A stretch of 38,863 bases of DNA from a virus. The position numbers were made by a program, and so were the translations under genes. The notes under the pieces are model-generated. The model was not told the DNA's origin. It ran no database searches and saw only the letters and a program-made list of their open reading frames with translations. This document shows positions 6,757-32,391 of this stretch, piece after piece. Numbering within the stretch: the stretch's first letter is position 1; each line of letters opens with the position of its first letter. The DNA is taken from positions 1-38,863 of IMG/VR virus record IMGVR_UViG_3300022538_000217; one strand, written 5' to 3'.

Positions 6757-7670
6757 TCTGTCTCCACGTATTCTTTTAATTCAGGATATTTCTCCAACCA
6801 CCAATCCTCATCAACAAGATTAACCTCACCAGGTAATTCTGTTTGATATAAACCATAATTTTCAATTGGGTTGTCATACCACAATAACCGGATTACCTCA
6901 GTTGTTTCTTTATTAATACAACGGGCAAACGTGTGATTTACGCCCAACCAATGAGTTGAAGAATATATAACACAATCTGCCACATCATGGATTGAACCTT
7001 CAATAGCGTCTGCTGTGGCTTTTTCAACCCTTCCAAACTCATCCAAACAAATAGCCGAAGCCCGACTACCTGCTGAAAAACTTTCATTCGTAGTCTCCCC
7101 TTGTATTGAACTTCCTGTCTCTGGAATTACTATTTGCATATCTTTTCTACAATTTTTTACATCATAACCACATCTTTTTTTCCACCAAGATGGAAGAAAA
7201 TCAAGAGCATTATCACATTTTCCCATTAATGTAGTTGGGTCGCCAGCACAATCAACGAGTTCTTTTTTTCTACTCCCTAAAATAAAATGAGAAAGCTCCT
7301 CTAACAAACATTTTGCAACAAAAAGCTTAGCACAAATTTCAGATGCTCCCTGTTTGCGAGTTTTATCAATTCCCACATCCCGTTTATTATCTATACACCA
7401 GTTCAGCCGCTCAACTGCCGGTATCTGTGCTGGCCGTAGTATAAACGGCTGATTCCTCTCCCCAGGCATTAATTGTGGATTTAACGTCCACGCCGTGCTC
7501 GAAAAAAAGATGGGGTAATACCTTCTACATAACTCAAGGAATATCTGTTGTAGGGTTTTGTCTGTTGCAAGTATCTTATGCAACTCAATCCGAAACTTTA
7601 TATTTTCCTGTATTTGAGTAGGTATTGCTTTATAAAACCCCTCCGGTGTATCAAATACTTTACTTTTCAT
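6753..7670 (-). CDS. terL: Large terminase, N-terminal ATPase half (split gene)
   Basis: About 305 residues from the preferred ATG at 7670, which overlaps the small terminase gene by 11 bases; an in-frame ATG at 7781 would overlap that gene far more. The terminase-type Walker A is at residues about 103-110 (KTRKQGAS), Walker B is at about 206-213 (AICLDEFG), and YSSTH at about 236-240 fits the coupling motif. The polypeptide stops at YVETE, where intact large terminases continue through a linker into the nuclease domain. It must therefore work in trans with the product of 5214-6287. Confidence 0.9.
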   Translation of the reverse strand: MKSKVFDTPEGFYKAIPTQIQENIKFRIELHKILATDKTLQQIFLELCRRYYPIFFSSTAWTLNPQLMPGERNQPFILRPAQIPAVERLNWCIDNKRDVGIDKTRKQGASEICAKLFVAKCLLEELSHFILGSRKKELVDCAGDPTTLMGKCDNALDFLPSWWKKRCGYDVKNCRKDMQIVIPETGSSIQGETTNESFSAGSRASAICLDEFGRVEKATADAIEGSIHDVADCVIYSSTHWLGVNHTFARCINKETTEVIRLLWYDNPIENYGLYQTELPGEVNLVDEDWWLEKYPELKEYVETE

Positions 7671-8196
7671 TTGTCTCACGAATAACTGCTTCGTACAATT
7701 TACCCGCACATCTTCTAATTTCTGCCTCTGTGTATTCCTTAATTTCAATCGTTTTCTTATTAACTTCAACCCTCTGCACATCCTGGAAGTACTCTGGGAG
7801 GCGACATTTAAGGATAAACCTCAATAAAGCCTCATTAGGCAATGCCCTCTTAATCTTGACTTTCCTACCATCAACCACTTCTTTCATCACAGGAGCACCC
7901 GTTTCGTCTCTGTTATTAAGTATATTCCGGTAGGTTCTATCTTCTTCCTGATATTCGTAGCCCAGAGCACATTTAACCGCTGCCACGATAAGAGTAATAT
8001 CAGCACGTTGCCGAGCAATCTCAATGAACTCATCTATCGTAGTACATTCGGCTTTAAGGTCTTTTAGCCACTTCAAACTGTCCTCGCCCAACGCACCTAC
8101 TATAGCCCCAATATCAGCCACACTTTGATTATTTTCAAGTAAATCCTTAGCTACGAGGGCAAAGGCCGCATTAACATCTTTTTTCGGACGTGGCAT
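7660..8196 (-). CDS. terS: Small terminase subunit
   Basis: A 178-residue helical protein immediately upstream of the ATPase half of the large terminase. It has an N-terminal segment that could be a helix-turn-helix (NQSVADIGAIVGALGEDS, about 23-40), a central CALGYEYQEE segment, and the ALPNEALLRFILKCRLPEYF region typical of small terminases that recognise packaging sites and recruit the large subunit. The C-terminus is coupled to the next gene by overlap. The assignment rests on these patterns and on order. Confidence 0.85.
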   Translation of the reverse strand: MPRPKKDVNAAFALVAKDLLENNQSVADIGAIVGALGEDSLKWLKDLKAECTTIDEFIEIARQRADITLIVAAVKCALGYEYQEEDRTYRNILNNRDETGAPVMKEVVDGRKVKIKRALPNEALLRFILKCRLPEYFQDVQRVEVNKKTIEIKEYTEAEIRRCAGKLYEAVIRETNEK

Positions 8197-14206: not shown

Positions 14207-15760
14207 ATGCCGAAATATAAAAAATATAATTTCGTTAAAATATTAAAAGAGTACAATAAAGAATACAAAAAAAATTCCTCACTTGTTCCAGAAATAAGCA
14301 AAGCTATAATAGTACACTCCCTTGAACCTAGCAGCTTTGATGTTACATATAGGGATGGGTACAGCGACTCCCGTGACGACTCTTTGGAGAATTTTCTATA
14401 TTACAAAGTTCTTTCGCCCCCTGATGTTGGAAAACTTATAGCATTTATACTACATAAAGAAGAAGGTAGTTTGAGTCTAAAAATAGTAATATTACCATCA
14501 AACAAAATAAGATATGCTTATTTACAGAGTAATTATTTTGCCTCAGGTGTTGGCAATCTCGGCAAGAGTTGTATGCGTTCAAAGGAACACCAAAGGTCAT
14601 TAAATTTTTATATTAAGAATAATGTGAAAATTGTTGTAGTTACAGACGATAATCATAAAATACATGCCCGTGCTTTACTGTGGGATAATGTTAAGTCCAT
14701 ACAACTCAAAACCTCATTTACATATTTAGATAGAGTATACACCAAATCAGAACATCTTGTATCTTTATTCAATGATTTGGCAAAGGAGAATAACTGGAAA
14801 GCTTATCAGACAACCAGCCCTGGAAATGCAAAAAGTGGTTATTATATAGATAATATAGATGTAACAAATATGTGCCACTTTCCCTATACTGATACATTTA
14901 GGTTCCTGTATTACAAAGATAATCTTGTTGCCTCAAGTACACCAAACAGTATTATTCATATGATAAAACATACAGATTGTCTTATACACCTAACTAATCA
15001 AAGTAATGGTGGGTATTATCCAGAACTCGACCCCAATAGGGTACGAGAGGCGATTAGTGGTAACTACATATCTAAGAAAGACGCTGTTAAAGTAAAAAGA
15101 TACAATGGATATGTATTAAAAAGAAATATTGCAAATATAGACGGTGCTTACTACAGTATTTTTGATGATTTAATAGTAAAAGCAGCAAACGATAAGTATA
15201 TACTTAAAGAAAACTCTGTAACCGAGATTTTCACTAACAATGTAATAGATAAAAGTAAAGCCATACAATCTCCCAAATATAAAGAATATATATATAAATC
15301 TAATGTTGTATACATTAAAGATGAGATATACCATAAGCTTGACAATAATATTATTTGTTTTCATGATAAATGGTATCACATTTCACAATGTTTTATAAAT
15401 TATAATCGGGAAGAAGCGAATAAGGAGATTGCAAAGCAACCAGTGTTCTTTCACCAAGATTTATCTAAAAACTGGGTACCTTATGTAACAGTAACAAGAG
15501 AAGGAGATATAATACCGAAAGAACACGCAATAATAGCATACGACCTCATCTGTAATCCGGCATTAGATGAAATTCAGTATCAGGAGAGATATTTTACAGA
15601 AAGGTCGGGGCTTATTAAACTTACTACTGGTGAGTTTATAGTGGATACACCTAACAACAGAAAGTATCTAAAAAAGTTTAATAATAAGTACTATATAAAA
15701 CAGGATTTTAAGTTACCTAATAAAAAGCAATTAGCGTTTGACTTCGGGGGTATAAAATGA
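14207..15760 (+). CDS. Large protein of unknown function with C-terminal QLAFDF tail
   Basis: A 517-residue protein with AAGGAG before the ATG. An N-terminal domain (about 1-240) has a conserved-looking core GNLGKSCMRSKEHQ, KIVVVTDDNHKIHARALLW and TYLDRVYT, a combination I have a sense of from large phage proteins of unknown function. The rest is repeated Tyr/Lys/Asn-rich strands (for example KRYNGYVLKRN, KYKEYIYKSN, NRKYLKKFNNKYY) that look like a repetitive beta structure. It ends KKQLAFDFGGIK, a variant of the tail found on twelve miniproteins downstream. Its stop overlaps the first of these. No enzyme motif is recognised. Confidence 0.8.
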   Translation: MPKYKKYNFVKILKEYNKEYKKNSSLVPEISKAIIVHSLEPSSFDVTYRDGYSDSRDDSLENFLYYKVLSPPDVGKLIAFILHKEEGSLSLKIVILPSNKIRYAYLQSNYFASGVGNLGKSCMRSKEHQRSLNFYIKNNVKIVVVTDDNHKIHARALLWDNVKSIQLKTSFTYLDRVYTKSEHLVSLFNDLAKENNWKAYQTTSPGNAKSGYYIDNIDVTNMCHFPYTDTFRFLYYKDNLVASSTPNSIIHMIKHTDCLIHLTNQSNGGYYPELDPNRVREAISGNYISKKDAVKVKRYNGYVLKRNIANIDGAYYSIFDDLIVKAANDKYILKENSVTEIFTNNVIDKSKAIQSPKYKEYIYKSNVVYIKDEIYHKLDNNIICFHDKWYHISQCFINYNREEANKEIAKQPVFFHQDLSKNWVPYVTVTREGDIIPKEHAIIAYDLICNPALDEIQYQERYFTERSGLIKLTTGEFIVDTPNNRKYLKKFNNKYYIKQDFKLPNKKQLAFDFGGIK

Positions 15761-15951
15761 ATTTTAAGGTAGGTGATAAGGTTATGGTAAAAACACCTGG
15801 ATGGCAGGAAGAATGCGTAGTCATTAAAATGGGATGTAGCAGCAAGATAATGTTTGTACGTAGAACTGACGGAGCGGTACCAGCCATATACAAAAGTTGG
15901 GCATTGCCTATATCTAAAAACCAGCAACTACTATTCAATTTTATGGATTAA
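15757..15951 (+). CDS. SH3-like miniprotein with QLLFNF tail (family member 1)
   Basis: 64 residues: N-terminal FKVGDKVMV strand, a short barrel-like body, AIYKSWALPI, then the tail NQQLLFNFMD. Closest to member 2 at 17497, which shares the AIYxSWA block. Start overlaps the previous stop (ATGA). Members of this family have the KVGD...G..G.V pattern of small SH3/KOW-like barrels plus a C-terminal QLxFxF peptide. The peptide resembles bacterial sliding-clamp-binding motifs (inference). Confidence 0.85.
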   Translation: MNFKVGDKVMVKTPGWQEECVVIKMGCSSKIMFVRRTDGAVPAIYKSWALPISKNQQLLFNFMD

Positions 15952-15955
15952 AATT

Positions 15956-16183
15956 ATGAATGAATTTACAAAACTATTCAGAATAAAACTTGATAAACAT
16001 ATCGTACCACAACGAATACAGGAATTGGGATATGAGGCTTGTAATCGCCTCGATAGTGTTGAGAATGCCCTTATCTGTATATCAGAAGCATCTGTGAAGT
16101 TTGAGCGTAAACATCATAAAGTGGGGCAAAAGCTCTTAACAAAAGCATTTAGAATTATTGAAACTGCTATGGAGATTTCATAA
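15956..16183 (+). CDS. Hypothetical helical protein (75 aa)
   Basis: ATG 15956 follows the family-1 miniprotein by five bases. The protein is helical and basic (FTKLFRIKLDKHIVPQRIQE; FERKHHKVGQKLLTKAFRII). The stop overlaps the peptidase start as TAATG, suggesting coupled expression and perhaps joint function with it. No family recognised. Confidence 0.7.
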   Translation: MNEFTKLFRIKLDKHIVPQRIQELGYEACNRLDSVENALICISEASVKFERKHHKVGQKLLTKAFRIIETAMEIS

Positions 16184-17421
16184 TGGATGCTTATTGGTTT
16201 CAAAAACTAATTGATGTGCTTAGAGTACAAACAAACAGTGAGAACGAAAAACTGATGGTACTGTATCTCGATAAAGAACTTAGAAAACTAAAGTTACCCT
16301 ATACTATTGACGCTGCTGGAAATATCCTTGTTACAAAAGGTAAGGCAAAAACCTACCCTTGTGTGGTATCACATATGGACACTGTGCACAGTTTTGTGCC
16401 TAATTTTAATGTATATCAAGATATAGATGATAACGATACATTGTTTGCATTAAATGGTAAAGAGAGAGTAGGTGTAGGTGGAGACGATAAATGCGGTGTA
16501 TTTGCATGTTTGTACCTATTAAAGACAGTACCGCAAATAAAGGTTGTATTTTTCTCAAGAGAAGAAAAAGGGTGTGCTGGCAGTAGAGCCATAGATAAAG
16601 GATTCTTTGCTAACTGTCGATACCTAATACAGTTAGACAGAAGGGGGAGTAGAGATTTCATTCAAACTTATTGGAGTAAGAAAACTATATCCCACGAATT
16701 CTCCTCTGAGATTGGGTTGATAAAAAAGAAGTATAGATACAAGAATGCTACTGGTACTGTTACAGATGTAATGAGACTATGGGATGATAGGGTAGGAATT
16801 TCTTGTATTAATCTATCCTGTGGATACTACCAACCTCATACTAATTGGGAGTATGTCTCTATCAAGGGTTTATGGAATAGCGTAAAATTTACAGAGGAAG
16901 TAGTAAATAGTATGCAGCCAAAAAGGTATGCTTCATTACCCCCTGTATCAACCGTAGTAACAACATTAGTTGCCCGAAGTTACCCAAGCTATGACATGTG
17001 TAGTGTATGCAAAAGATGGAAAAAAGATACATTGTTATATAAAATCAAAAACAGTAAAGAGAAAATATGCTGGTCTTGCAAAGTAGATAAGAATCTTAAA
17101 AAAGTAAGAGAACACTCTGATAATAAAAATATAGATTACAGTAAACTACCAAACGGTGATATTATACTCTTTCTCTGTCACGAATGTGGTAAGAGAACAG
17201 ACGAAATGAAAAAAGGGGATAGTTTGAGGTATTATGCAGGGGACGATAATCATTTATACTGTAATGAATGTGCTTCGGTACTCTTTGCAGCCAATGTAGA
17301 AAAGCCCCCTGCAAAGTGCTATGTGTGTGATAAGATAATACCGAAAGACCACCAGGTTATAGAACGATTTGGTGTGCGTGTATGTGAATATTGTGCTACT
17401 CAAGAGGAGCTAACCTGTTAA
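16183..17421 (+). CDS. M20/M28-type metallopeptidase fused to zinc ribbons
   Basis: A 412-residue protein. The first 245 residues carry the metal ligands and catalytic residues of co-catalytic zinc peptidases in order: His64 and Asp66 (SHMDTVH), Asp101 (GVGGDDKCG), Glu127-Glu128 (SREEKG), Asp152 (IQLDRRG) and His219 (YQPHTN). Only 67 residues separate Asp152 from His219, too few for the M20 dimerisation domain, so a single-domain form. Residues about 270-412 hold three paired CxxC ribbons (CSVC/CWSC, CHEC/CNEC, CYVC/CEYC). Such enzymes normally trim peptides; the ribbons suggest docking to protein or nucleic acid. Its target is unknown. Confidence 0.85.
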   Translation: MDAYWFQKLIDVLRVQTNSENEKLMVLYLDKELRKLKLPYTIDAAGNILVTKGKAKTYPCVVSHMDTVHSFVPNFNVYQDIDDNDTLFALNGKERVGVGGDDKCGVFACLYLLKTVPQIKVVFFSREEKGCAGSRAIDKGFFANCRYLIQLDRRGSRDFIQTYWSKKTISHEFSSEIGLIKKKYRYKNATGTVTDVMRLWDDRVGISCINLSCGYYQPHTNWEYVSIKGLWNSVKFTEEVVNSMQPKRYASLPPVSTVVTTLVARSYPSYDMCSVCKRWKKDTLLYKIKNSKEKICWSCKVDKNLKKVREHSDNKNIDYSKLPNGDIILFLCHECGKRTDEMKKGDSLRYYAGDDNHLYCNECASVLFAANVEKPPAKCYVCDKIIPKDHQVIERFGVRVCEYCATQEELTC

Positions 17422-17474
17422 GCAATTATCTAACAAGAATAGACAATTTTGTCTTGTTAAGCAGTTACTTAATT
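17416..17474. promoter_or_regulatory. Tandem operator-like dyads and hairpin
   Basis: TGTTA-N10-TAACA at 17416-17435, ending TATCTAACA, matches the two dyads at 9203-9222 and 9243-9262. A degenerate copy starts 39 bases later (17455-17474, TGTTAAGCAGTTACTTAATT). Between them TAACAAGA (17431-17438) and TCTTGTTA (17452-17459) form a perfect 8-bp hairpin. The first half-site lies in the end of the peptidase gene. Likely regulator-binding; the HTH gene at 17741 is close by. Confidence 0.55.
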
Positions 17475-17496
17475 TATTGTCGGTTAGGAGCTAAAA

Positions 17497-17736
17497 ATGC
17501 AGTTTTTTAAGGTAGATGATAAGGTTGTATTAACAAATGTAGCGACATGGTATGGCGGTGCCTTACAGAGAAATGAAAAATGTGTAGTTACACGCTTAGG
17601 TGTCGACTCCAAGTACGTAAGTGACCCAGTTATATGGGTGAAAAATACCAAAGGAATAGAAACAGCTATATATCAAAGTTGGGCATCCAAAATTACACCT
17701 AACCACCAACAGTTATTATTCAATTTTATGGAGTAG
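17497..17736 (+). CDS. SH3-like miniprotein with QLLFNF tail (family member 2)
   Basis: 79 residues. FKVDDKVVL opens the barrel, AIYQSWASKI closes it, and the tail is NHQQLLFNFME. It shares the AIYxSWA block with member 1, so the pair are nearest relatives. TTAGGAG lies 7 bases before the ATG. It is the first gene after the operator cluster at 17416-17474. Confidence 0.85.
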   Translation: MQFFKVDDKVVLTNVATWYGGALQRNEKCVVTRLGVDSKYVSDPVIWVKNTKGIETAIYQSWASKITPNHQQLLFNFME

Positions 17737-17740
17737 TTAT

Positions 17741-17995
17741 ATGACTACAAAACAAATAATAACATTAGTTCTTTTTGCACAAAACTATTCATTGCAAACC
17801 ATTGCAAAGAGACAAAGGGTATCACTAACAACTGTGAGGCAACGCATAAAAGCCCTTAGTAAAAACCATTCCAGGGAATTTAACAACGCTCTTGCTTTAC
17901 GAAATAGTTACAAAAGAATACGAGACGGTATTAGATATACTGACCGCTTCAAAGATATGGATGCCGAGTTAGGCAATATTCACACTAAGTTTTAG
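17741..17995 (+). CDS. Small helix-turn-helix DNA-binding protein
   Basis: 84 residues. A helix-turn-helix is visible in NYSLQTIAKRQRVSLTTVRQ at about residues 14-33, similar in spacing to sigma region 4 or LuxR-type HTHs, followed by a basic helix (RIKALSKNHSREF). Position just after the operator-like dyads suggests it is the regulator that binds them; that is inference. It is followed by the 18.0-kb control region. Confidence 0.75.
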   Translation: MTTKQIITLVLFAQNYSLQTIAKRQRVSLTTVRQRIKALSKNHSREFNNALALRNSYKRIRDGIRYTDRFKDMDAELGNIHTKF

Positions 17996-18005
17996 GCATA
18001 ACTGA

Positions 18006-18022
18006 TACAATCGTTACAGGTG
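18006..18022 (+). repeat. Repeat shared with the 9.2-kb control region
   Basis: TACAATCGTTACAGGTG, the uninterrupted form of the sequence at 9175-9200. It opens a 205-base gene-free stretch after the HTH gene, and the same stretch carries two more blocks shared with the divergent control region. Confidence 0.5.
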
Positions 18023-18054
18023 TAAGAGAAACTTTGATAAATTTAAGATTTTTC

Positions 18055-18167
18055 TGAGATTTATTTATTATAGGGCGTAAAAATACAACCGATTCCGTAC
18101 TAAGTAAAAAGGGCTATAGTATTTATAACCTAAGTGCTAATATATGCGGGACGCAATATAAAGCACT
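18055..18167 (+). promoter_or_regulatory. Second control region with leader motif and stem-loop
   Basis: Contains TGAGATTTATTTATTA...GTAAAAAT (18055-18084; a near copy precedes the 8523 start on the minus strand), CGTACTAAGTAAAAAGGG (18096-18113; near copy at 8723-8740), and the stem-loop CCTAAGTGCT-N23-AGCACTAAG (stem 18133-18138 with 18162-18167; counterpart 8576-8608). TAAGT units recur several times. It precedes the gene at 18205 by about 40 bases and probably holds a regulated promoter. Confidence 0.55.
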
Positions 18168-18204
18168 AAGTATAAGTACAAAGTACTATATAGGGGTTTA
18201 TATA

Positions 18205-18456
18205 ATGAAATGGCATGAAAAGTTTAAGGTCGGACAAAAGGTTAAAGTTATCCGAAAAATTAAATATTGGAATGGTGTGTCTTGGAATAGTGGTCAGATG
18301 GACAATACAATAGGTAAAGTTTATACAATAGTTCAAGTGGATGAAAAATATGGGTATCAGTTGCAGACACATAATATTTATGGTTATTGGTATCCATTAG
18401 AATCATTATCTTATGTTAAAGGCGAACAGTTATTATTTAGTTTTATGGAAGGGTAG
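18205..18456 (+). CDS. SH3-like miniprotein with QLLFSF tail (family member 3)
   Basis: 83 residues. FKVGQKVKVIRKI opens the domain, NTIGKVYTIV forms the central strand, WYPLESLSYV closes it and the tail is GEQLLFSFMEG. First gene after the second control region, with TAGGGG upstream of the ATG. Tyr/Trp content is higher than in other members. Confidence 0.85.
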   Translation: MKWHEKFKVGQKVKVIRKIKYWNGVSWNSGQMDNTIGKVYTIVQVDEKYGYQLQTHNIYGYWYPLESLSYVKGEQLLFSFMEG

Positions 18457-18460
18457 TATT

Positions 18461-18904
18461 ATGTCAAATTATTCTAAAGAGGAGATTGCAGCTTTTAAGG
18501 AGAAAGATTTAAGAATAAGCAGATTAGCTATATTAAAATCACTAATAGAAAAATGTTCAGAGGAGGACGTTTATGGAGTTGATAAAATTGTTGAACTGAT
18601 GGCTAAGTACATTGATTATGTCTACGAGGAACGTAAGGAGACTACAAAAAGGGGTCAAGTTGCCAGTGTAGGTGACAGTACCGAGGGCATTAAATGGGAA
18701 CAGATAGCCAAAGGATTAAATCTTGCTATACCTAACAGCCAAAATATAAAGATACTCAATCAGGTTATTGATGAGTATAAAAAGGCACATAAAGCAAGTG
18801 CTAATCCTCCCGATATTCTTGTTCACATTATCAGTACCTTCGGGAAATACCCCCACAATCCAGAAAGTGTAAGTAAAATTGTTAGTTCATTTTTTGAAAG
18901 GTGA
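18461..18904 (+). CDS. Hypothetical replication-region protein (147 aa)
   Basis: ATG 18461, five bases after the family-3 stop region. Helical, begins MSNYSKEEIAAFKEKDLRIS and has a linker (KRGQVASVGDST) dividing two helical halves, with a C-terminal segment rich in helix caps (NPESVSKIVSSFF). It resembles uncharacterised phage proteins found near helicase genes. No catalytic motif is visible. Confidence 0.75.
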   Translation: MSNYSKEEIAAFKEKDLRISRLAILKSLIEKCSEEDVYGVDKIVELMAKYIDYVYEERKETTKRGQVASVGDSTEGIKWEQIAKGLNLAIPNSQNIKILNQVIDEYKKAHKASANPPDILVHIISTFGKYPHNPESVSKIVSSFFER

Positions 18905-18909
18905 CACAG

Positions 18910-19269
18910 ATGAAAACGAAAGTAAAGTTAAACGGCAAAAAGGTCACTATTGACCTTAGCAAGCCAAAAGTAGCAAAGCTTGTAACAGAGCTGGTGCAGG
19001 CATGTCTCACAAGAACATTCCCAATCGGGATGGTACTTGAGCACGCAAATGGCACGGAGTATCAACTGGCATCAATCAAGAGCAACAAGTATACTTCGGC
19101 AAGAGCATACCTGGTCAACACAGATACCGGACGTGCTCGCAACAGCAGCAAGGTCGTGCCGGTTCTGGGCGACTTCCACTCTGAGGATGGTCTGTACACA
19201 GAAGACCTTCCGTGCGAGCGTGATAAATTCGTAGACCCAGACGAAGACGGTGAGTACATAGATATATAG
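18910..19269 (+). CDS. GC-rich small protein (119 aa), likely strongly expressed
   Basis: ATG 18910 follows AAGGTG; a GTG at 18901 is the alternative. The protein is a basic N-terminal domain (MKTKVKLNGKKVTIDL) with a beta-rich middle and a very acidic C-terminus (DPDEDGEYIDI). Base composition by rough count is 45-57 percent G+C, against about 28 percent just upstream, with codon choices unlike its neighbours. It is followed by a stem-loop. High expression or recent acquisition would both fit. No family recognised. Confidence 0.8.
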   Translation: MKTKVKLNGKKVTIDLSKPKVAKLVTELVQACLTRTFPIGMVLEHANGTEYQLASIKSNKYTSARAYLVNTDTGRARNSSKVVPVLGDFHSEDGLYTEDLPCERDKFVDPDEDGEYIDI

Positions 19270-19281
19270 TCTATGTAAGTA

Positions 19282-19316
19282 AAAGGCATGAGGTAGAGGT
19301 TTTGCCTTGTGCCTTT
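19282..19316 (+). terminator. Stem-loop after the GC-rich gene
   Basis: AAAGGCA (19282-19288) pairs with TGCCTTT (19310-19316), seven pairs around a 21-base loop; only a short T-rich stretch follows. It may be a weak terminator or transcript-stabilising hairpin after a strongly expressed gene. Confidence 0.4.
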
Positions 19317-19330
19317 ATTGGAATCATATT

Positions 19331-19579
19331 ATGAAATATAAATACCCAATAGGTACTCGAATTAGATATAAAGGGAGTGCTAAGCAAGATGTTGGTAAGG
19401 AAGGTAAAATTGTTGGATGGGTAAATCCACGTATTGTACGTATCGTAATACCAAATTCACACGTAGCATTACATTGTTACAATGACTCTACTCATCCTTG
19501 GACTACTTATATAACAGATGTAGAGATATTAGCAATAAAAAACCAACAGTTACTATTTGAGTTTATGAATGAGGAGTAA
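19331..19579 (+). CDS. SH3-like miniprotein with QLLFEF tail (family member 4)
   Basis: 82 residues. YPIGTRIRYKGSA opens the domain in the PIGT form shared with members 6, 7 and 8; VGKEGKIVGW is the central turn and strand, ITDVEILA the last strand, and NQQLLFEFMNEE the tail, which runs three residues past the usual end. Confidence 0.85.
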   Translation: MKYKYPIGTRIRYKGSAKQDVGKEGKIVGWVNPRIVRIVIPNSHVALHCYNDSTHPWTTYITDVEILAIKNQQLLFEFMNEE

Positions 19580-19583
19580 TATT

Positions 19584-19850
19584 ATGAGTAGTAGTAAACC
19601 AGAACATACAGTAAGATGTGGTGGCATCCAGTTAGCAATATGGGCTAATGAAACCACTAAAGGAACATTTCAGAGTATCACAATAGACAAGTCATACAAG
19701 GATGGGGAGACTTGGAAGCGTACTAAGAGCTTTAAGCCAGCAGATTTGGTTAAACTACAGCTTGGTATTGGTAAAGTTCTTGAGTATCTCTATTTAAGGC
19801 CAGATGTAATACAACCTAAAGTTGATAAAAATGATGGCATACCATTTTGA
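19584..19850 (+). CDS. Conserved hypothetical protein, possible ssDNA-binding fold
   Basis: 88 residues with GGIQLAIWANETTKGTFQSI followed by SYKDGETWKRT and a C-terminal helix that contacts LVKLQLGIGKVLEYL. The IWxNE...F.S.T....YKD...W pattern is a family I know from many bacteria and phages as uncharacterised, with a beta-sheet plus helix layout like PC4-type single-strand binding proteins. Location beside the helicase agrees, but DNA binding is only suggested. Confidence 0.7.
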   Translation: MSSSKPEHTVRCGGIQLAIWANETTKGTFQSITIDKSYKDGETWKRTKSFKPADLVKLQLGIGKVLEYLYLRPDVIQPKVDKNDGIPF

Positions 19851-19860
19851 GGAATAAAAT

Positions 19861-20088
19861 ATGAAGTTTAAGGTAGGACAAATAGTAGAACTTGTGGATG
19901 ATAGTGGTATGGCTGCGGGTGTAGGGGCTACTGCTGTAGTAACAGGTGTCGGGACTCAATATCTTTCTGTGAAATGGATAAGAAATTCTCTGGATGATAA
20001 CCAGGGAAATGGTGGATACTGCCCACATTTATTCAAAGTTGTGTCACAAAAGGGCAAACAATTACTATTTAGTTTTATGGAGATATAA
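19861..20088 (+). CDS. SH3-like miniprotein with QLLFSF tail (family member 5)
   Basis: 75 residues. FKVGQIVELVDDSG, then GVGATAVVTGVG and YLSVKWI strands, and tail GKQLLFSFMEI. GAGGAATAAA precedes the ATG. Stop overlaps the start of member 6 as TAATG, so two family members are directly coupled here. Confidence 0.85.
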   Translation: MKFKVGQIVELVDDSGMAAGVGATAVVTGVGTQYLSVKWIRNSLDDNQGNGGYCPHLFKVVSQKGKQLLFSFMEI

Positions 20089-20318
20089 TGGCTACTAAAA
20101 AGTATCCAATAGGTACAAAGGTTAAATATATTGGGAGTTGTAGAAGCTGTAGTGAACATACTGGTAAAGTTATTAGGGCATATGATAATATGTGTCGTAT
20201 AACTTTACATCATTCCAATTGTAGTGGTGCAAGGGGTGGGAGTATTACGTGTGTCTGGTCTGATATAGAACGATTGATAAAAAAGAACAAGCAACTTTTG
20301 TTTGCCTTTATGGAATAA
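20088..20318 (+). CDS. SH3-like miniprotein with CxxC and QLLFAF tail (family member 6)
   Basis: 76 residues. YPIGTKVKYIGSCRSC opens the domain, TGKVIRAYDN is the central strand, two further cysteines follow (SNCSG, ITCVW), then WSDIERLI and tail NKQLLFAFME. More than half of its residues are shared with member 7, so the two arose by recent duplication. The four cysteines may bind zinc. Confidence 0.85.
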   Translation: MATKKYPIGTKVKYIGSCRSCSEHTGKVIRAYDNMCRITLHHSNCSGARGGSITCVWSDIERLIKKNKQLLFAFME

Positions 20319-20321
20319 TCT

Positions 20322-20633
20322 ATGTCCAAACCGTCTAAGCCACATTCAGAAGAAGACGTCTTTGATGTAATGAAAGACTACTCTCAAAAGAAGGGGTACT
20401 CATTCACTGATACACAGTTGAGGTTTATGGCTGAAAATTGCTATTTATTGTATGAGAGCAAGGATTGGTATGGTATAAAGTACTGGCCTCCGTTAGCAAT
20501 GAAATGGGTTCTCAACGAAAGAGGGAAGTTCAATAGTAAACCTACAAGTTATAAGAAACCTAAACCATGTGGTAAGTCAATTAGAGATAAGGTAATGGAA
20601 CGTGAAAACATGGAGCAAGAAAATGATGGATAA
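20322..20633 (+). CDS. Hypothetical protein upstream of the helicase (103 aa)
   Basis: 103 residues, beginning MSKPSKPHSEEDVFDVMKDY, with a helical, aromatic-rich core (LRFMAENCYLLYESKDWYGI, YWPPLAMKWVLNE) and a basic tail (KKPKPCGKSIRDK). It lies between family members 6 and 7 and two genes upstream of the DnaB-type helicase. It could be a helicase loader or primosome part, but I see no ATP-binding motif. Confidence 0.7.
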   Translation: MSKPSKPHSEEDVFDVMKDYSQKKGYSFTDTQLRFMAENCYLLYESKDWYGIKYWPPLAMKWVLNERGKFNSKPTSYKKPKPCGKSIRDKVMERENMEQENDG

Positions 20634-20853
20634 AACATACCCTATTGGTACTAATATTAAATACATTGGATACTGTAGGAAGTGTAAAGGTAAAACTGGT
20701 AAAATTATTAAGGCATATGACAACTGTGTTCGTGTAAGTTTACCACAATCTACTTGTAGCGGTGCCACAAGTGGTAGTATTGTATGTCGTTGGCCTGATG
20801 TAGAACTACTAATAACAAAAGGCCAACAGTTACTATTTGCTTTTATGGAGTAA
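20623..20853 (+). CDS. SH3-like miniprotein with CxxC and QLLFAF tail (family member 7)
   Basis: About 76 residues from ATG 20623 (GGAG 7 bases upstream; the next codon is also ATG). YPIGTNIKYIGYCRKC, TGKIIKAYDN, two more cysteines (STCSG, IVCRW), WPDVELLI and tail GQQLLFAFME. Close relative of member 6. It overlaps the preceding gene by 11 bases. Confidence 0.85.
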   Translation: MMDKTYPIGTNIKYIGYCRKCKGKTGKIIKAYDNCVRVSLPQSTCSGATSGSIVCRWPDVELLITKGQQLLFAFME

Positions 20854-20857
20854 GAAA

Positions 20858-21112
20858 ATGATTGACGTAGAATATAGGTTAAAGTTTCCAATAGGGGCTA
20901 CAATTAGATATACACCCAACGCACATAATGTTTGTTCTGCAGCATGTAAAGATATTGGTAAACAAGGAACGGTTATTGACCATTTGTACCATCAAGTAAA
21001 GATTTACTTACCTACATCAGAAAAACGAAGTAAAACTTGGAGAACACTGTGGAAGAATATAAAAAAGTTACCGCAGAAAAATGAACAATTATTATTTTCC
21101 TTTATGGAGTAG
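20858..21112 (+). CDS. SH3-like miniprotein with QLLFSF tail (family member 8)
   Basis: 84 residues from ATG 20858, with GGAG 7 bases upstream in the end of member 7. FPIGATIRYTPNAHNVCSAA, GKQGTVIDHL, WKNIKKLP and tail KNEQLLFSFME. It is immediately followed by the helicase gene, whose ribosome binding site overlaps its stop. Confidence 0.85.
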   Translation: MIDVEYRLKFPIGATIRYTPNAHNVCSAACKDIGKQGTVIDHLYHQVKIYLPTSEKRSKTWRTLWKNIKKLPQKNEQLLFSFME

Positions 21113-21117
21113 GTAAA

Positions 21118-21984
21118 TTGCCACTCTTTGACCTTAGAAAAGACATTCAGGATATTAAGGAGAGCATAGGCAAGCCTTTCGATGGTGTTAAATCAGGCAT
21201 CACGGTATTAGATAGTTTTATACTTGGCTTTGGTAAAGGTGAGATGTCAACCATAGCAGGCCGCCCTGGTATGGGCAAGAGTAGTATGGCAAGAGATATA
21301 CTATTGAATATAGGGCAACCTACAGTCAACGAAGGGGCTTGTTTGTTGTGTACTCTGGAAATGCCCTGCGAAGAAATCACGGAGCTACTCGCAGCAAACT
21401 TAGCTAAGGTGGACTACCAAAGCATAAAGAGGGGGGATGCCACTGAGCAAGTGTTAACCAAGTTTCAGGTGGCTCTTGAACAGCTATCTCAGTACAGCAT
21501 TATAATCAATGACGATTCGTATGTTGTGCCGGATTCTATAAGGGAGATTCTTAAAACTATTGAAAAGGATGAGCCTATTGCGTGTTTAATAGTAGACTAT
21601 CTCCAACTCATGTCTTTGAGAAAGCAGGTAGTAAACAGACAGGAGGAAGTATCAGAGATAAGTAGGGAACTAAAGGCTATAGCCAGGGAGTTTAATATAC
21701 CTGTTATAGCGTTCTCTCAACTTAACCGCAATGTAGAGTCCAGAGTAGACCCAAGACCCCGTATGACAGATTTACGTGAAAGTGGGGCTATGGAGAATGA
21801 CTCTACTAAGATTATATTGATACATAGGCCGAGTTATTTTGACAAACAGTTAGACCCAAATGCTGAGGATAGTGGGGAAGCCGAATTAATTGTTTGTAAA
21901 AATCGTAGTGGGGCTGTAGGCACAGTGGAGTGTGCCTTCATCTCACAGTGGATGAGTTTTAAGGATAAGCCAGAGGATTTCTAA
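21118..21984 (+). CDS. DnaB-type replicative helicase, RecA-like domain only
   Basis: 288 residues from a TTG start at 21118, preceded by GGAGTAGG in the end of member 8. Walker A is GRPGMGKSS (48-56), Walker B LIVDYLQLM (157-165), followed by AFSQLNRNVESR and LRESGAMENDSTKI (219-232), all hallmark DnaB/gp4-type helicase segments. Full DnaB is about 450 residues, so the N-terminal primase-interacting domain is missing. It unwinds DNA at the phage fork, with the primase encoded two genes later. Confidence 0.92.
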   Translation: MPLFDLRKDIQDIKESIGKPFDGVKSGITVLDSFILGFGKGEMSTIAGRPGMGKSSMARDILLNIGQPTVNEGACLLCTLEMPCEEITELLAANLAKVDYQSIKRGDATEQVLTKFQVALEQLSQYSIIINDDSYVVPDSIREILKTIEKDEPIACLIVDYLQLMSLRKQVVNRQEEVSEISRELKAIAREFNIPVIAFSQLNRNVESRVDPRPRMTDLRESGAMENDSTKIILIHRPSYFDKQLDPNAEDSGEAELIVCKNRSGAVGTVECAFISQWMSFKDKPEDF

Positions 21985-21985
21985 T

Positions 21986-22204
21986 ATGGAATTAAAAGTT
22001 GGTGACAAAGTACGGATAGTCAAGTTTCCTGACAAGGATATTGTTGGATTGATTGGTGAAGTTATTAGAGTAGACAATCACCCTGTGTGTCCTTATGAAG
22101 TTAAACTGGTATCAAATCAGTTTTGGGTTTGCTCAATGTACCCTTCTGAAATAGAGCCTCTTATTAAGGTAGGTCAACAACTATTATTCTCATTCATGGA
22201 ATAG
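21986..22204 (+). CDS. SH3-like miniprotein with QLLFSF tail (family member 9)
   Basis: 72 residues. LKVGDKVRIVKFPD, IVGLIGEVIRVDNH, MYPSEIEPLI and tail VGQQLLFSFME. One of the most canonical members: the first and last barrel strands are easy to align with members 5 and 12. It sits exactly between helicase and primase genes. Confidence 0.85.
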   Translation: MELKVGDKVRIVKFPDKDIVGLIGEVIRVDNHPVCPYEVKLVSNQFWVCSMYPSEIEPLIKVGQQLLFSFME

Positions 22205-22210
22205 AATTAT

Positions 22211-23062
22211 ATGCGAGATTCAGACTTTCAACAATTAAATATCATCTTTACAGAACATGATAAAGTATGGGCTTATTGCGTTTATCATAAAGATACTGTT
22301 AGACCCAATTTATCTATATCTCTATTAGATAAATATTATGGTAGGTGGAAATGCTGGGCTTGTCCTGCCGAGGGGTATCTAACTAAACAACAAATGAGCA
22401 AATTAAATTTGTCAAATTGCATTGTATACAAAGCTGATAGGAAGAGGTTGGATACAAGATGGAAACAGTTTAATGAAAGTTGTTATGATAATTTACAGAA
22501 ATTCCCACTGTTAAAGTTGGGATTGGCTAAGGAATTAAATGTAGGTACAAAGAGTTTAGATGAATGGCAAGTTGGGTTTGATGGTCGTAGCTTCACAATA
22601 CCAATGTTTAGGGAAGATTTGTCCGAGTATCACAGAGAGGGCGGGTTTTGTGGAGTGCAACGTAGGTTCCCAGATGGGTCTAAGCGTTGTATTACAGGTT
22701 CCCGTTTAGGGCTTATGTATCCGTATAACCATATCGGTGATTATTATATATTCATTTGTGAGGGATTTAGTGATGGTATCTCCGTATGGGATTTAGGATT
22801 ACAGGGTGTAGCACGTCCACACTGTAGGCACACAGATGGTATTGAGGAGTTCCTTGAGGATGTTTTGGGAGGTATTGAAGGAGTGATAATAATACCAGAC
22901 AACGATGCTGTGGGGATAGATGGTGCTGAAAGGCTGCAACATATATTAAAATATGAATATGATTGTGTGATACATCTTTTCAGTGGGGCGAAAGATATTC
23001 GTGAACTAATCCGACTCGAAGGAAAATCTTTTGTTAAGCAAGAATTGGAGGCTTACTTATAA
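22211..23062 (+). CDS. DNA primase (DnaG-type, zinc finger plus TOPRIM)
   Basis: 283 residues. N-terminal zinc motif CVYH...CWAC (about residues 23-51), a middle region, and a TOPRIM domain with ICEGFSDGISVWD (about 187-199; catalytic Glu) and VIIIPDNDAVGIDGAERL (about 229-246; DxD). It makes RNA primers for lagging-strand synthesis. The stop overlaps the start of family member 10 (TAATG). It is shorter than full DnaG and lacks a recognisable helicase-binding domain. Confidence 0.9.
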   Translation: MRDSDFQQLNIIFTEHDKVWAYCVYHKDTVRPNLSISLLDKYYGRWKCWACPAEGYLTKQQMSKLNLSNCIVYKADRKRLDTRWKQFNESCYDNLQKFPLLKLGLAKELNVGTKSLDEWQVGFDGRSFTIPMFREDLSEYHREGGFCGVQRRFPDGSKRCITGSRLGLMYPYNHIGDYYIFICEGFSDGISVWDLGLQGVARPHCRHTDGIEEFLEDVLGGIEGVIIIPDNDAVGIDGAERLQHILKYEYDCVIHLFSGAKDIRELIRLEGKSFVKQELEAYL

Positions 23063-23331
23063 TGAAATCTAAATTCAAAGTTGGTGGTAGGGTTCATGTT
23101 ATAAAGTGGTTAAATATGCCGAAAATTATGCAGGAATCTTACGGTACAAATACTATGAGGATTGGGGAAATTGGGATTATAAAGAGAGTTCTTGAAGAAG
23201 AATATGATAATACAATTTGTTATGATGTTCTTTTTAATGGTGATAGATACCCTGTGTTTTTCTTTGAACAAGAACTTGAATCAACTATTAAAGTGGGGGA
23301 GCAGTTAACGTTTGGTTTTATGGAAAAATAG
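23062..23331 (+). CDS. SH3-like miniprotein with QLTFGF tail (family member 10)
   Basis: 89 residues, one of the longest members. FKVGGRVHVIKWLN, a longer insertion, RIGEIGIIKRVLE, YPVFFFEQELESTIKV and tail GEQLTFGFMEK. Members 10 and 11 share the T variant of the tail. It is followed by a 5-bp GC hairpin. Confidence 0.85.
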   Translation: MKSKFKVGGRVHVIKWLNMPKIMQESYGTNTMRIGEIGIIKRVLEEEYDNTICYDVLFNGDRYPVFFFEQELESTIKVGEQLTFGFMEK

Positions 23332-23333
23332 AG

Positions 23334-23350
23334 CGGCGTAAGAGTCGCCG
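23334..23350 (+). other. Short GC-rich hairpin
   Basis: CGGCG-TAAGAGT-CGCCG (23334-23350), a five-pair stem between two genes, close to the ribosome binding site of the next gene (AAAGGGG). It may modulate translation of the gene at 23363. No T-run, so not a classic terminator. Confidence 0.35.
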
Positions 23351-23362
23351 GAAAGGGGTAGT

Positions 23363-23572
23363 ATGGCTAAAAAAGTAATATTTCAGAATCACCATTTACT
23401 GTACGAGAATAAAGAGAAGCGGGTTAAAGCTGTTACCCGCAGGATACGTAAAGGTGTTCACATGGCGATTACTCTACTCAGAAGATTTACTTACTTAACT
23501 GACCAGGAGATTAACACGATAAAATTAGAAAGCGAATTGAAAAGGAAATATAGTAATGGGGAAAGTGGCTAA
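23363..23572 (+). CDS. Hypothetical protein (69 aa)
   Basis: AAAGGGG precedes the ATG. The protein starts MAKKVIFQNHHLLYENKEKR, a QNHHLxY opening that I recognise from uncharacterised phage proteins, followed by a basic helical region (RRIRKGVHMAITLLRRF). The C-terminus overlaps member 11 by 17 bases. Function unknown. Confidence 0.7.
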   Translation: MAKKVIFQNHHLLYENKEKRVKAVTRRIRKGVHMAITLLRRFTYLTDQEINTIKLESELKRKYSNGESG

Positions 23573-23795
23573 ACATAACTTCAAAATTGGGAACGAAGTA
23601 AAGCTAAAAGACCCCAGTGATTGGAGTATGGGTGATAGGGTTGGTATAATCGTTAGGTTTACTGCTCCATACATACGGGTCGATTGGGAGGGTAAAGAAG
23701 CATGGACGAAAGGTTATCCACACCTTCCAAAAGAAATAGAACATATAGTGAAAATTGGTGAACAACTTACATTTCAATTTATGAAAGGAGAATAA
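23556..23795 (+). CDS. SH3-like miniprotein with QLTFQF tail (family member 11)
   Basis: 79 residues. FKIGNEVKLKDPSDW, MGDRVGIIVRF, YIRVDWEGKEAW, LPKEIEHIVKI and tail GEQLTFQFMKGE. The start lies within the end of the preceding gene. Its last gene neighbour is the lipoprotein at 23797. Confidence 0.85.
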   Translation: MGKVAKHNFKIGNEVKLKDPSDWSMGDRVGIIVRFTAPYIRVDWEGKEAWTKGYPHLPKEIEHIVKIGEQLTFQFMKGE

Positions 23796-23796
23796 A

Positions 23797-24303
23797 ATGA
23801 GAGTGATTCTATTGGGGTTGGTCTTATTAACATTGCTTGGATGTGCAATGTTCCCTGTAGGCGGTGGGGCCACAGGGGGTAATACAATATCCATTTCTAC
23901 ACCAGCTAATCAGCTTTGGCAAGCAGCAAGACAGACTAACTGGCTTGTGACAGTTTCTATTATCATTATTGCTTTTGGGGCTGTAGCTTTTTTTCAGGGT
24001 ATGGTAAAACTTGGTACGTCAGCAGCATTATTTGGTTGTGTAACATTATTTCTAAGTTTAGCAACTGCTCGATTTGCATTATGGATGGCTGTGTTTGGGT
24101 TGGTTGGTGCAGTAGCGGTAGTCGCAGCAAGTATATTATTGAAGAACAGAGCACTGGTTGAAATGATTTCTGGGACACAAAAATTGAAAGAGGGATTAAA
24201 TAAGGATGAAAGTAATAAAATACTTTCAAAACCACAGTCCAAGTCAACACAAAAGTTGGTACAGACGATTAAAACAAACCTTAAACTGAAAGGGAGATTA
24301 TGA
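23797..24303 (+). CDS. Predicted lipoprotein with several membrane segments
   Basis: 168 residues. Lipoprotein signal MRVILLGLVLLTLLGC with lipobox LLGC and Cys16 as the modified residue, a Gly/Thr-rich linker, then three hydrophobic segments (about 50-66, 70-90 and 92-112) and a basic soluble tail (LNKDESNKILSKPQ...). The next gene, also membrane protein, overlaps it by ATGA, so they may form a complex. Possible roles are superinfection exclusion or a membrane anchor for replication; none is shown. Confidence 0.7.
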   Translation: MRVILLGLVLLTLLGCAMFPVGGGATGGNTISISTPANQLWQAARQTNWLVTVSIIIIAFGAVAFFQGMVKLGTSAALFGCVTLFLSLATARFALWMAVFGLVGAVAVVAASILLKNRALVEMISGTQKLKEGLNKDESNKILSKPQSKSTQKLVQTIKTNLKLKGRL

Positions 24304-24554
24304 GTTGGATAATATTAATGATTTTAATAGCTATTGGTGGGTTTGATTTGTATTTATATTTTACCAAACAAAAGACATTATCACAAGGATGGCTATTCGA
24401 TAGATTGGGGATAAAAATAGGCCAACCAAGTAGAGCAGTAAAAGCAGGGATACTGATTGGTTTGATGATACTGGTTTGGGTACTTGGTGGAGTGTCTTTA
24501 TTTGTTCGTGTATTGATAGGGGTAATTTTGGGGCATTTGTTGTGGCCGGAGTAG
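24300..24554 (+). CDS. Small membrane protein (84 aa)
   Basis: 84 residues with at least two hydrophobic spans: ILMILIAIGGFDLYLYF near the N-terminus and ILIGLMILVWVLGGVSLFVR, plus a hydrophobic end (VLIGVILGHLLW). Coupled to the lipoprotein gene. No holin signature is recognised, and the location away from lysis-type genes argues against that role. Confidence 0.7.
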   Translation: MSWIILMILIAIGGFDLYLYFTKQKTLSQGWLFDRLGIKIGQPSRAVKAGILIGLMILVWVLGGVSLFVRVLIGVILGHLLWPE

Positions 24555-24557
24555 AAA

Positions 24558-24728
24558 ATGACTATTAACGAAAAGATGAAATGGCCTGCGGATAAACCCA
24601 AGTATGATAAGAACTATCTTAGATTGTATGGCAAACCGTGTCCGCACTGTGGTGGTGTGGGTGGTAAGGTAGGGATGTATCCCTGTGATAATTGCAAAGG
24701 GTTGGGTTATGTGGAGAAAAAGAAATGA
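24558..24728 (+). CDS. DnaJ-type zinc-finger miniprotein (56 aa)
   Basis: MTINEKMKWPADKPKYDKNY followed by CPHCGGVGG and CDNCKGLGY, i.e. two CxxCxGxG repeats like half of the DnaJ zinc domain. The stop overlaps the start of member 12 (ATGA). It may act in protein folding or nucleic-acid binding; without a J-domain a chaperone role cannot be assumed. Confidence 0.65.
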   Translation: MTINEKMKWPADKPKYDKNYLRLYGKPCPHCGGVGGKVGMYPCDNCKGLGYVEKKK

Positions 24729-24970
24729 AATTCAAAGTAGGGGATAGGGTTAAGACACTGCCATCGGCTGTAGATATTGGTGTATTCAAGAGTGATATTG
24801 GTAAAACAGGAGTAATTATAGATTGCAATTTTTTGGATATGTATATTAGGGTTGACATGGATAGTGTGTGTAAAGAAGCTGGTTGTAAGAAAGAATGGGC
24901 TGTACGTCCTGACGATATAGAATTAGCAGTTATGATAGGACAACAACTATTATTTAGTTTCATGGAATAG
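24725..24970 (+). CDS. SH3-like miniprotein with QLLFSF tail (family member 12)
   Basis: 81 residues. FKVGDRVKTLPSA, DIGKTGVIIDCN, YIRVDMDS, RPDDIELAVMI and tail GQQLLFSFME. Contains three cysteines in the middle. It is the last member of the array, 3.6 kb after the helicase start. Confidence 0.85.
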   Translation: MKFKVGDRVKTLPSAVDIGVFKSDIGKTGVIIDCNFLDMYIRVDMDSVCKEAGCKKEWAVRPDDIELAVMIGQQLLFSFME

Positions 24971-26169: not shown

Positions 26170-26396
26170 AATGGATTAGTGTTAAAGATAGATTACCAGA
26201 GGGGGTTTGGTCAAAGCAGCACCCGACCTTATCCGAAGAGGTACTGATAGTCAACAGTTGTGCTATTCTTGTTGGGTATTATGATAGACATAATGAAATA
26301 TGGTATACTGGTGGAGATGTTGGTAATGAATGGGTAGATAAGATTACTCATTGGATGCCATTACCCAAGAACCCGCATAAAGGAGGTGTTAAATGA
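26166..26396 (+). CDS. DUF551-family protein
   Basis: 76 residues with the family signature MKWISVKDRLPE at the start and ITHWMPLPKNP at the end; the middle is beta-rich (EVLIVNSCAILVGYYD). DUF551 proteins are common in phages and prophages and have no known function. Overlaps both neighbours by ATGA. Confidence 0.8.
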   Translation: MKWISVKDRLPEGVWSKQHPTLSEEVLIVNSCAILVGYYDRHNEIWYTGGDVGNEWVDKITHWMPLPKNPHKGGVK

Positions 26397-27226
26397 AATG
26401 GGAGAACCGCTATAATTTACCCGATAGAGTGATTAGAGTATTAAAAGGAAGATATAAGGAGCATAGGCCTGAGCTAAATAGATTGTCCATCACTGATTTA
26501 ATTGACGACCCATTACCCCGTATACTATTCATTAATCATTGGGATGATATAGTACGGGATTATTCCGACCTAATAACTATGGTACAAGGTATATCCTTAC
26601 ATAGTAGATATGAGGACTGTGCATTGGAGGATGTAGATGTAGAGCATAAGTTTGAGGATATAGTGGATGGGATTATTGTAGTAGGTAAGGCCGATAGTTA
26701 TTTTGATAGTACTCTGCTTGAGTTGAAACAAACAGGGGTATACGGGCCGAAGTATAGAATCCCTAAGTGGACTAAGCAGATGAACTGTTACACTTGGCAG
26801 AGGCGTATTAGAGGGTATCCAGTAGAAGAATTAGGGGTTGATGTGTGGTACAGGGATTGGAAACAGGGTAATGTGTATTGGAGAGATTACCCCCCGATTC
26901 CTTATGAGTATATCTGCTTAGACTTGTGGAGTTTGGATAAGCAAGAACAATATATACGTAGTCAGGTACAGAAGCATTTAGCCCATCCTGTATTTGATAA
27001 GCCCAACCAATATGAGAAACCTTGTAGTGATAAGCAGCGAGGCATTAGATGGGAAGCCTATAAAGGTAAGAACAAGACACCTACTAAAGTAGAAGATACT
27101 GATAGTGAGCTATTTCTATGGTGTGAACAGCAACCACAAAAGTTTGATATACGAAAGAGTGAACCTATATTCTGTCAAAGATATTGTCGGGCACGAAGTA
27201 TATGCCCATTTGTTAAAGGAGAATAA
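26393..27226 (+). CDS. RecB/Cas4-like PD-(D/E)xK nuclease with probable Fe-S cluster
   Basis: 277 residues. The nuclease core is VVGKADSYFDSTLLELKQTG: Asp101, Glu110 and Lys112 make the D...ExK site. ISLHSRYED (about 67-75) may supply the upstream histidine motif. The C-terminus has FCQRYCRARSICPF (about 260-274) with a further cysteine near 245 (LWCEQQ), the four-cysteine arrangement that binds a 4Fe-4S cluster in Cas4 and AddB. It is probably the recombination or end-processing exonuclease. No recombinase gene is adjacent. Confidence 0.82.
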   Translation: MKWENRYNLPDRVIRVLKGRYKEHRPELNRLSITDLIDDPLPRILFINHWDDIVRDYSDLITMVQGISLHSRYEDCALEDVDVEHKFEDIVDGIIVVGKADSYFDSTLLELKQTGVYGPKYRIPKWTKQMNCYTWQRRIRGYPVEELGVDVWYRDWKQGNVYWRDYPPIPYEYICLDLWSLDKQEQYIRSQVQKHLAHPVFDKPNQYEKPCSDKQRGIRWEAYKGKNKTPTKVEDTDSELFLWCEQQPQKFDIRKSEPIFCQRYCRARSICPFVKGE

Positions 27227-31963: not shown

Positions 31964-32120
31964 CTTTACTATACCTACATATAGCAAAAAACAATTAAAG
32001 TGTTTTGATAATTATTGTCTTAAATACCACGATACGGGAGTTTATGTTTATAAATTTAGACAAAAAAAGATAGTGTATTGCAACTTTTGTAAGCGTAATT
32101 ATGGAGCAAACAATAATTAA
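31950..32120 (+). CDS. Zinc-finger miniprotein (56 aa)
   Basis: MKTIDFTIPTYSKKQLKCFD followed by NYCLKYHD and YCNFCKRNYG. Cysteines and a histidine could form one zinc site. It overlaps the preceding gene by 14 and the polymerase exonuclease start by 20 bases. Function unknown. Confidence 0.6.
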   Translation: MKTIDFTIPTYSKKQLKCFDNYCLKYHDTGVYVYKFRQKKIVYCNFCKRNYGANNN

Positions 32121-32391
32121 AACCCCAAATGATTTTCGAGATTGGTGTAGTAACCTCAAGAGTATATGGGTATTAGATACTGAGACTACATCTCTTGATT
32201 GGTTAGACCTTGAGATTATAGGCTTCTCAATCTGTGATGGTTCTCAAGCATGTTATGTGGACATCAAGAGGAGGTACAAGAAAGGGTTGTTGATGATTCT
32301 GGATTACTATTTATCAGAGGCTAAGATGGTGGTTATGCACAATACCCCCTATGATATGATGTCACTTAGAAAGGAAGGGATAGAAATATGA
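32101..32391 (+). CDS. Family A DNA polymerase, 3'-5' exonuclease part (split gene)
   Basis: 96 residues that match the N-terminal part of a Pol I-type proofreading domain: Exo I WVLDTETTSLDW (Asp26, Glu28) and Exo II VVMHNTPYDMM (Asn81, Asp85). The frame stops after RKEGIEI. The Exo III tyrosine and aspartate (YATED) are found at residues 54-58 of the polymerase frame that starts at 32555. The two parts are separated by a 55-codon membrane-protein gene. They must associate in trans for proofreading. Confidence 0.88.
   Translation: MEQTIIKTPNDFRDWCSNLKSIWVLDTETTSLDWLDLEIIGFSICDGSQACYVDIKRRYKKGLLMILDYYLSEAKMVVMHNTPYDMMSLRKEGIEI

Follow-up and report, generated by a model that had tools for sequence, protein, structure and literature searches.

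An array of paralogous phage miniproteins with a C-terminal tail resembling clamp-binding motifs, set between replication genes

The question raised by this locus is what a dozen small, related proteins do between the replication genes of an uncultivated phage, and which partner their common C-terminal end recognises. The DNA analysed, referred to as the window, is the whole 38,863-nucleotide stretch (38.9 kb) of virus record IMGVR_UViG_3300022538_000217, which encodes a DnaB helicase, a Toprim primase, a family A DNA polymerase, an exonuclease-like protein and an MT-A70 methyltransferase. Core genes in a fixed series alternate in the window with genes for miniproteins, the series running from a 517-aa protein through an M28-type peptidase homologue, a helix-turn-helix protein, two unknowns, a small protein with an SSB-like tip and another unknown to the helicase, the primase and further genes. 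The twelve miniprotein genes listed in the first-pass annotation are present at the starts it gave, with lengths of 64-89 aa, and its placing of them directly against replication-region genes is right in substance, as the core series includes the DnaB helicase and the Toprim primase. All relatives covering the region keep the core gene order and carry miniproteins in mostly the same gaps. The features of the array and its surroundings are as follows.

14207..15760, + strand: 517-aa core phage protein with an array-type C-terminal tail (NKKQLAFDFGGIK), the thirteenth tail in the window
15757..15951, + strand: miniprotein 1, 64 aa, tail QQLLFNFMD
16183..17421, + strand: M28-type peptidase homologue, array core gene (Pfam Peptidase_M28, phrog_4191)
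17497..17736, + strand: miniprotein 2, 79 aa, tail QQLLFNFME
18205..18456, + strand: miniprotein 3, 83 aa, tail EQLLFSFMEG
19331..19579, + strand: miniprotein 4, 82 aa, tail QQLLFEFMNEE
19584..19850 (likely start 19584), + strand: conserved small mid-array protein with a bacterial SSB-like acidic tip, DKNDGIPF
19861..20088, + strand: miniprotein 5, 75 aa, tail KQLLFSFMEI
20088..20318, + strand: miniprotein 6, 76 aa, tail KQLLFAFME
20623..20853, + strand: miniprotein 7, 76 aa, tail QQLLFAFME, most similar within the array to miniprotein 6
20858..21112, + strand: miniprotein 8, 84 aa, tail EQLLFSFME
21118..21984, + strand: DnaB-type replicative helicase, array core gene (Pfam DnaB_C, E=1.4e-72)
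21986..22204, + strand: miniprotein 9, 72 aa, tail QQLLFSFME, flanked by the helicase and primase genes
22211..23062, + strand: Toprim primase, array core gene (Pfam Toprim_2, E=2e-7)
23062..23331, + strand: miniprotein 10, 89 aa, tail EQLTFGFMEK
23556..23795, + strand: miniprotein 11, 79 aa, tail EQLTFQFMKGE
24725..24970, + strand: miniprotein 12, 81 aa, tail QQLLFSFME, the member used for structure prediction
26393..27226, + strand: exonuclease-like core gene downstream of the array (phrog_2139, E=3e-17)

Several features outside the array are recorded here for completeness. The family A polymerase (window 32101-34084; related contigs L043, L053 and L050) is interrupted at a single site in every relative checked, with the exonuclease part ending in GIEI or GIDV and the polymerase part beginning with MP.I.DTLT. 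The gap is occupied by different ORFs, one that is small and membrane-like in the window, one zinc-finger-like in L043, and methyltransferase-like ones in L053 (one) and L050 (two), and it looks like a cargo slot within the polymerase gene. By position and sequence impression, a large-terminase-like protein lies in two ORFs in the window (5214-7781, - strand) and in all relatives, and an HNH-type endonuclease-like ORF (6259-6756) sits between the two halves in the window. In a search for cultured relatives, the 595-aa protein encoded at 3162-4949 had no match in 50,697 phage records.

In all twelve miniproteins the QLxFxF tail lies 2-4 residues from the C-terminus, and an alignment of the twelve bears out both the shared tail, in which Q, L, F, F and M are invariant, and the shared head pattern, with a [FYL].[VI]G...[VI] opening and a conserved mid-head glycine. 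The last strand of the form W/Y..[DE][IVL]E that had been proposed with it is found in most members and not in all. Synonymous codons do vary at the constant tail residues in the window, with the glutamine encoded by CAA in seven genes and CAG in five, the leucine at position 2 by TTA, CTA and CTT in seven, three and two, and the phenylalanine at position 4 by TTT in nine and TTC in three; the tail is shown to be under selection as protein. A permissive form of the tail pattern occurs at the C-terminus of 2 of 282 ORFs from unrelated phage and bacterial DNA, a background of about 1%.

Because the twelve proteins had originally been chosen by their tails, circularity was countered with a head-only profile, made by cutting the tail from a 48-member alignment and run against all ORFs of the window and of eight related contigs. 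In the window the profile recovers exactly these twelve and no convincing tail-less member, and in the related contigs it finds further members in conserved slots between the same replication genes. Counted after dropping two near-duplicate contigs, there are 55 non-redundant members, with 48 tails of the form Q[LM].F.F and seven close alternatives (QLMLF in three, QLLLW, QILFGF, QTLFDF and QQLFSF), and no tail-less member at E<1e-3. The QLMLF miniprotein tails fall in two lineages. A more distant relative, reached through the small SSB-tip protein, has the same gene order and slots and an array of its own, with the tails QLHFMFK, QLHFQFK and QTYFQFK. A weak match in L054 (8609-8887, - strand; E 0.004) joins only the first part of a head to a helix-turn-helix-like sequence, and the tail is absent.

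The best cross-genome match lies in the same slot for 39 of the 55 members, against 7.7 expected by chance, which indicates that the family diversified before these phages diverged. Only two members, the pair at 20088 and 20623, have their best match in their own genome; recent tandem expansion is ruled out except for this pair, nearly all members being closer to a counterpart in another phage. Heads in the same slot are about 51% identical (median), helicases 57-90% and core proteins 51-90%, and on these alignments the heads diverge fast while the tails do not. The residues flanking the motif are more alike within a genome (0.434) than between genomes (0.331; reached in 0 of 2000 shuffles), as would be expected if one partner per host selects all the tails, and gene conversion could be another or an added source of this likeness. 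In L038, two miniproteins on the - strand (3874-4101 and 4332-4592) do not differ at their 3′ ends or in the DNA that directly follows (TTTATGACGCCGTAGgcgtactaaattgctacg), which points to a recent exchange of sequence within the family.

Searches further afield returned little. Against Pfam the miniproteins gave nothing above cut-off and against PHROGs weak matches only, without function, so that an origin of the tail in an unrelated known domain, the outcome named beforehand as counting against the clamp reading, finds no support. One miniprotein searched against 50,697 phage records had no match, a helicase profile run against 84,980 bacterial and archaeal genomes brought up no relative, and the tail DNA pattern hit 20 sites in the same genomes, none of them in a tail-bearing relative.

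The tail is also found on a larger protein, the 517-aa product of the first gene of the array, whose relatives end in QLAFDF, QLLFEF or QLQFSF in some cases and in QLLLF, QSLLF or QLNLF in others, with QLLLL also seen. The tail of the 517-aa protein is predicted to be disordered (pLDDT below 50) in a model that is poor overall (pLDDT 58). Distant homologues from Cellulophaga and Thermus phages (L124, L125 and L126) lack the motif, their ends being acidic stretches, and their genes too adjoin one for a peptidase or metal-dependent hydrolase.

The first-pass annotation had likened the tail to the peptides by which bacterial proteins bind the beta sliding clamp. Natural ligands of the clamp carry the motifs Q-phi-x-[L/M]-[F/L] and Q-phi-x-[L/M]-x-[F/L], the tightest forms being QLxLF and QLxLxF, and the motifs often lie at a flexible C-terminus, where acidic flanks or a free carboxylate help (PMC11139829). 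In the phage family all 48 QLxFxF tails and all seven alternatives have the glutamine at position 1, and position 2 is leucine in 48 of 48 QLxFxF tails, with I, T or Q in three of the alternatives and T in one tail of the distant relative. The final aromatic position agrees as well, with phenylalanine at position 6 in all QLxFxF tails and at position 5 in most pentamer variants, one of which has tryptophan, and the motif sits in an accessible C-terminal segment of low predicted pLDDT. Position 4 is where the two part. Known E. coli ligands have only leucine or methionine there, and a Pol III alpha peptide with phenylalanine at this position was a weaker competitor (PMC11139829). In the common phage form the residue is phenylalanine, a departure from a consensus that is drawn from E. 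coli ligands; the pentamer variants QLMLF, QLLLF, QSLLF, QLNLF and QLLLW have leucine, and QLNLF is itself the motif with which E. coli Pol V binds the clamp (PMC11139829). Clamp motifs in the DnaE of assorted bacteria likewise have leucine at position 4 in the clear cases. A few residues follow the phage motif, as in Pol III alpha, and a Pantoea DnaE ends in QVELEFL. Strict membership of the clamp-motif class is not claimed for QLxFxF; our claim is that, by its sequence, the tail would work like such a motif. The proposed clamp binding has thereby gained strong comparative support, the tails toggling in homologues between QLxFxF and forms matching the canonical DnaN pentapeptide, with the departure of the common form at position 4 standing against it.

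Clamp genes were sought in nine contigs, which may be incomplete, and no DnaN or gp45 family member was found (PF09116 absent); with no recognisable clamp gene in the contigs, the candidate partner is the clamp of the host. The phage helicase, primase, family A polymerase and exonuclease have no such C-terminal motif.

The head of the miniproteins is predicted to be a small barrel. The AlphaFold2 model of miniprotein 12 (mean pLDDT 82) shows a KOW/SH3-like barrel followed by a tail predicted to be flexible, pLDDT being 77-91 in the head and 52-64 in the tail. Its best structural matches are KOW6 of DSIF, ribosomal eL21, the KOW domain of NusG and Bacillus YorP, all KOW/Tudor-like barrels at Z 8-10 (VIA-align Z up to 10.0). 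These small domains resemble the phage head in predicted fold, and their sequence similarity to it is weak: a sequence search of solved structures gave 46 weak matches, many of SH3/KOW type (best E 8e-4), and no informative relative. To our knowledge, no QLxFxF-type tail is carried by KOW/SH3-like small domains. The heads are mostly basic, with a median net charge of +3 and a median pI of 9.2, several being near neutral or acidic; the basic character makes nucleic acid binding possible and DNA mimicry unlikely for most.

Taken together, the comparisons make the sliding clamp of the host, DnaN, the probable docking site of the tails, and the observation that weighs most is the drift of homologous tails to QLMLF, QLLLF, QSLLF and QLNLF, even if these pentapeptide variants represent only a handful of independent events. 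Against docking, the family A phage polymerase has no such C-terminal motif, and the phage need not rely on a clamp for synthesis. As short linear motifs, the tails would dock in the hydrophobic pocket by which DnaN binds proteins, and each miniprotein would join a KOW/SH3-like head, small and usually basic, to a flexible end bearing the clamp-binding-like motif, an anchor that the 517-aa protein would share. Made alongside the early proteins of the phage, helicase and primase among them, the miniproteins would occupy clamps at the fork and bring their heads there, and a hub that normally serves host polymerases and repair proteins would be turned to phage use. The heads would differ in their tasks from slot to slot, and the competition would, as a likely side effect, drive host partners off the clamp and might affect host replication. 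This overall reading, clamp docking with the heads as specialised adaptors, is the one we favour, with moderate confidence.

The main rival of the adaptor reading is a pure decoy, in which the heads matter little and a dozen tails fill the clamp pocket by mass action, stopping host replication and repair. Many copies, one constant tail and heads that diverge faster than the helicase (median about 51% against 57-90%) are what such a system might look like, and phages are known to attack the clamp, as Gp168 of Twort does (PMC11139829). The retention of head types in their slots, in 39 of 55 members with two own-genome best matches, instead suggests individual functions rather than an interchangeable dose, and the 517-aa core protein bears the tail as well. 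Nothing directly separates a decoy from an adaptor, and it is the slot-specific conservation of the heads that argues against the purely competitive version of the first proposal; we regard it as unlikely.

The other explanations are weaker still. Docking on a phage replication protein such as the helicase, primase or polymerase, the likeness to clamp motifs then being convergence, would account for the phenylalanine at position 4, which known clamp ligands do not have, and for the position of all tail-bearing genes among replication genes, but homologous tails would not be expected to turn into QLMLF, QLLLF, QSLLF and QLNLF, so close to clamp motifs, if the site were unrelated, and this reading appears rather improbable. 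A role in clamp-coupled transcription, with heads contacting RNA polymerase as NusG-type KOW domains do and tails tying it to a clamp that tracks on DNA, as for late genes with T4 gp33 and gp55, draws on the match of the head fold to the KOW domains of DSIF and NusG and on the binding of the clamp by C-terminal motifs of gp55 and gp33 (PMC9690074). KOW/SH3 barrels are so common that the fold match says little about partners, no gp45-type clamp was found in the nine, possibly incomplete, contigs and a dozen such factors would be excessive, which leaves this role very improbable. There is scarcely any chance that the conserved end is a nucleic-acid-level artefact that serves the next gene in ribosome binding or coupling. 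The terminal ATGGAG does double as a Shine-Dalgarno sequence in about half of the window genes, and as the last residues (ME) overlap the signal of the next gene in only that half, the tail is not explained by it; a Shine-Dalgarno sequence lies inside the gene end in just 13 of the 55 members overall, and the tail residues also end a protein in other contexts, as in the 517-aa relatives. The variation of third codon positions in Q, L and F codons under constant residues largely refutes a Shine-Dalgarno origin.

A second element of the array may bear on the preferred adaptor reading. The small protein in the middle of the array ends in DKNDGIPF, which we take to resemble the tip of bacterial SSB, and its counterparts in relatives end in KKDDDNIPF, SDENVPF, GDTPF and GDVPF; the protein has no relative among solved structures. 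If real, the SSB-like tip would be a second host docking motif borrowed by the phage. A wider proposal, which we put forward tentatively and with less than even confidence, is a clamp-hub takeover in which an anciently diversified dozen of adaptors, one between nearly every pair of replication genes, ties KOW-like heads to the host clamp and, together with the mimic of the SSB tail, docks the phage replication apparatus on the host replisome through borrowed motifs.

Known systems share parts of this arrangement. The clamp-binding motifs of Pol III alpha, Pol IV, Pol V, Hda and IS transposases, the last carrying theirs at the C-terminus (PMC11139829, PMC4549789), resemble the phage tail in the glutamine at position 1, the leucine at position 2, the last phenylalanine, the flexible C-terminus and the occurrence of pentamer and hexamer forms, whereas the common phage form has phenylalanine at position 4 and is carried by a large paralogous family of miniproteins rather than by one enzyme, and clamp binding is proposed for it. 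Gp168 of Staphylococcus phage Twort is a phage protein aimed at the host clamp, as proposed here, but it fills the DNA channel of the clamp and not the protein-binding pocket (PMC11139829), and no array or docking tail is described for it. T4 gp33 and gp55 likewise come from a phage and grip a sliding clamp through a hydrophobic motif at the C-terminus (PMC9690074); they differ in binding the phage's own gp45, which is not recognisable in the present contigs, through the motif LDFL. Caulobacter SocB blocks replication through the usual clamp-binding motif (PMC9690074), and unlike the array it is a single gene and a component of a bacterial toxin-antitoxin system. A literature search limited to open-access papers found no described array of this kind in any phage. 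Phages were already known to attack or borrow the clamp with single proteins; what appears to be new here is a paralogous array in which many small proteins, encoded in conserved slots among the replication genes, have a clamp-type anchor in common.

Should the tails indeed dock on the clamp, the array would represent a new route by which phages commandeer the replication machinery. With dozens of different heads on one anchor, it would provide a natural panel for learning how a phage reorganises the replication hub, and the phenylalanine at position 4 would map the tolerance of the clamp pocket to sequence change. The tails would also be a source of pocket-binding peptides.
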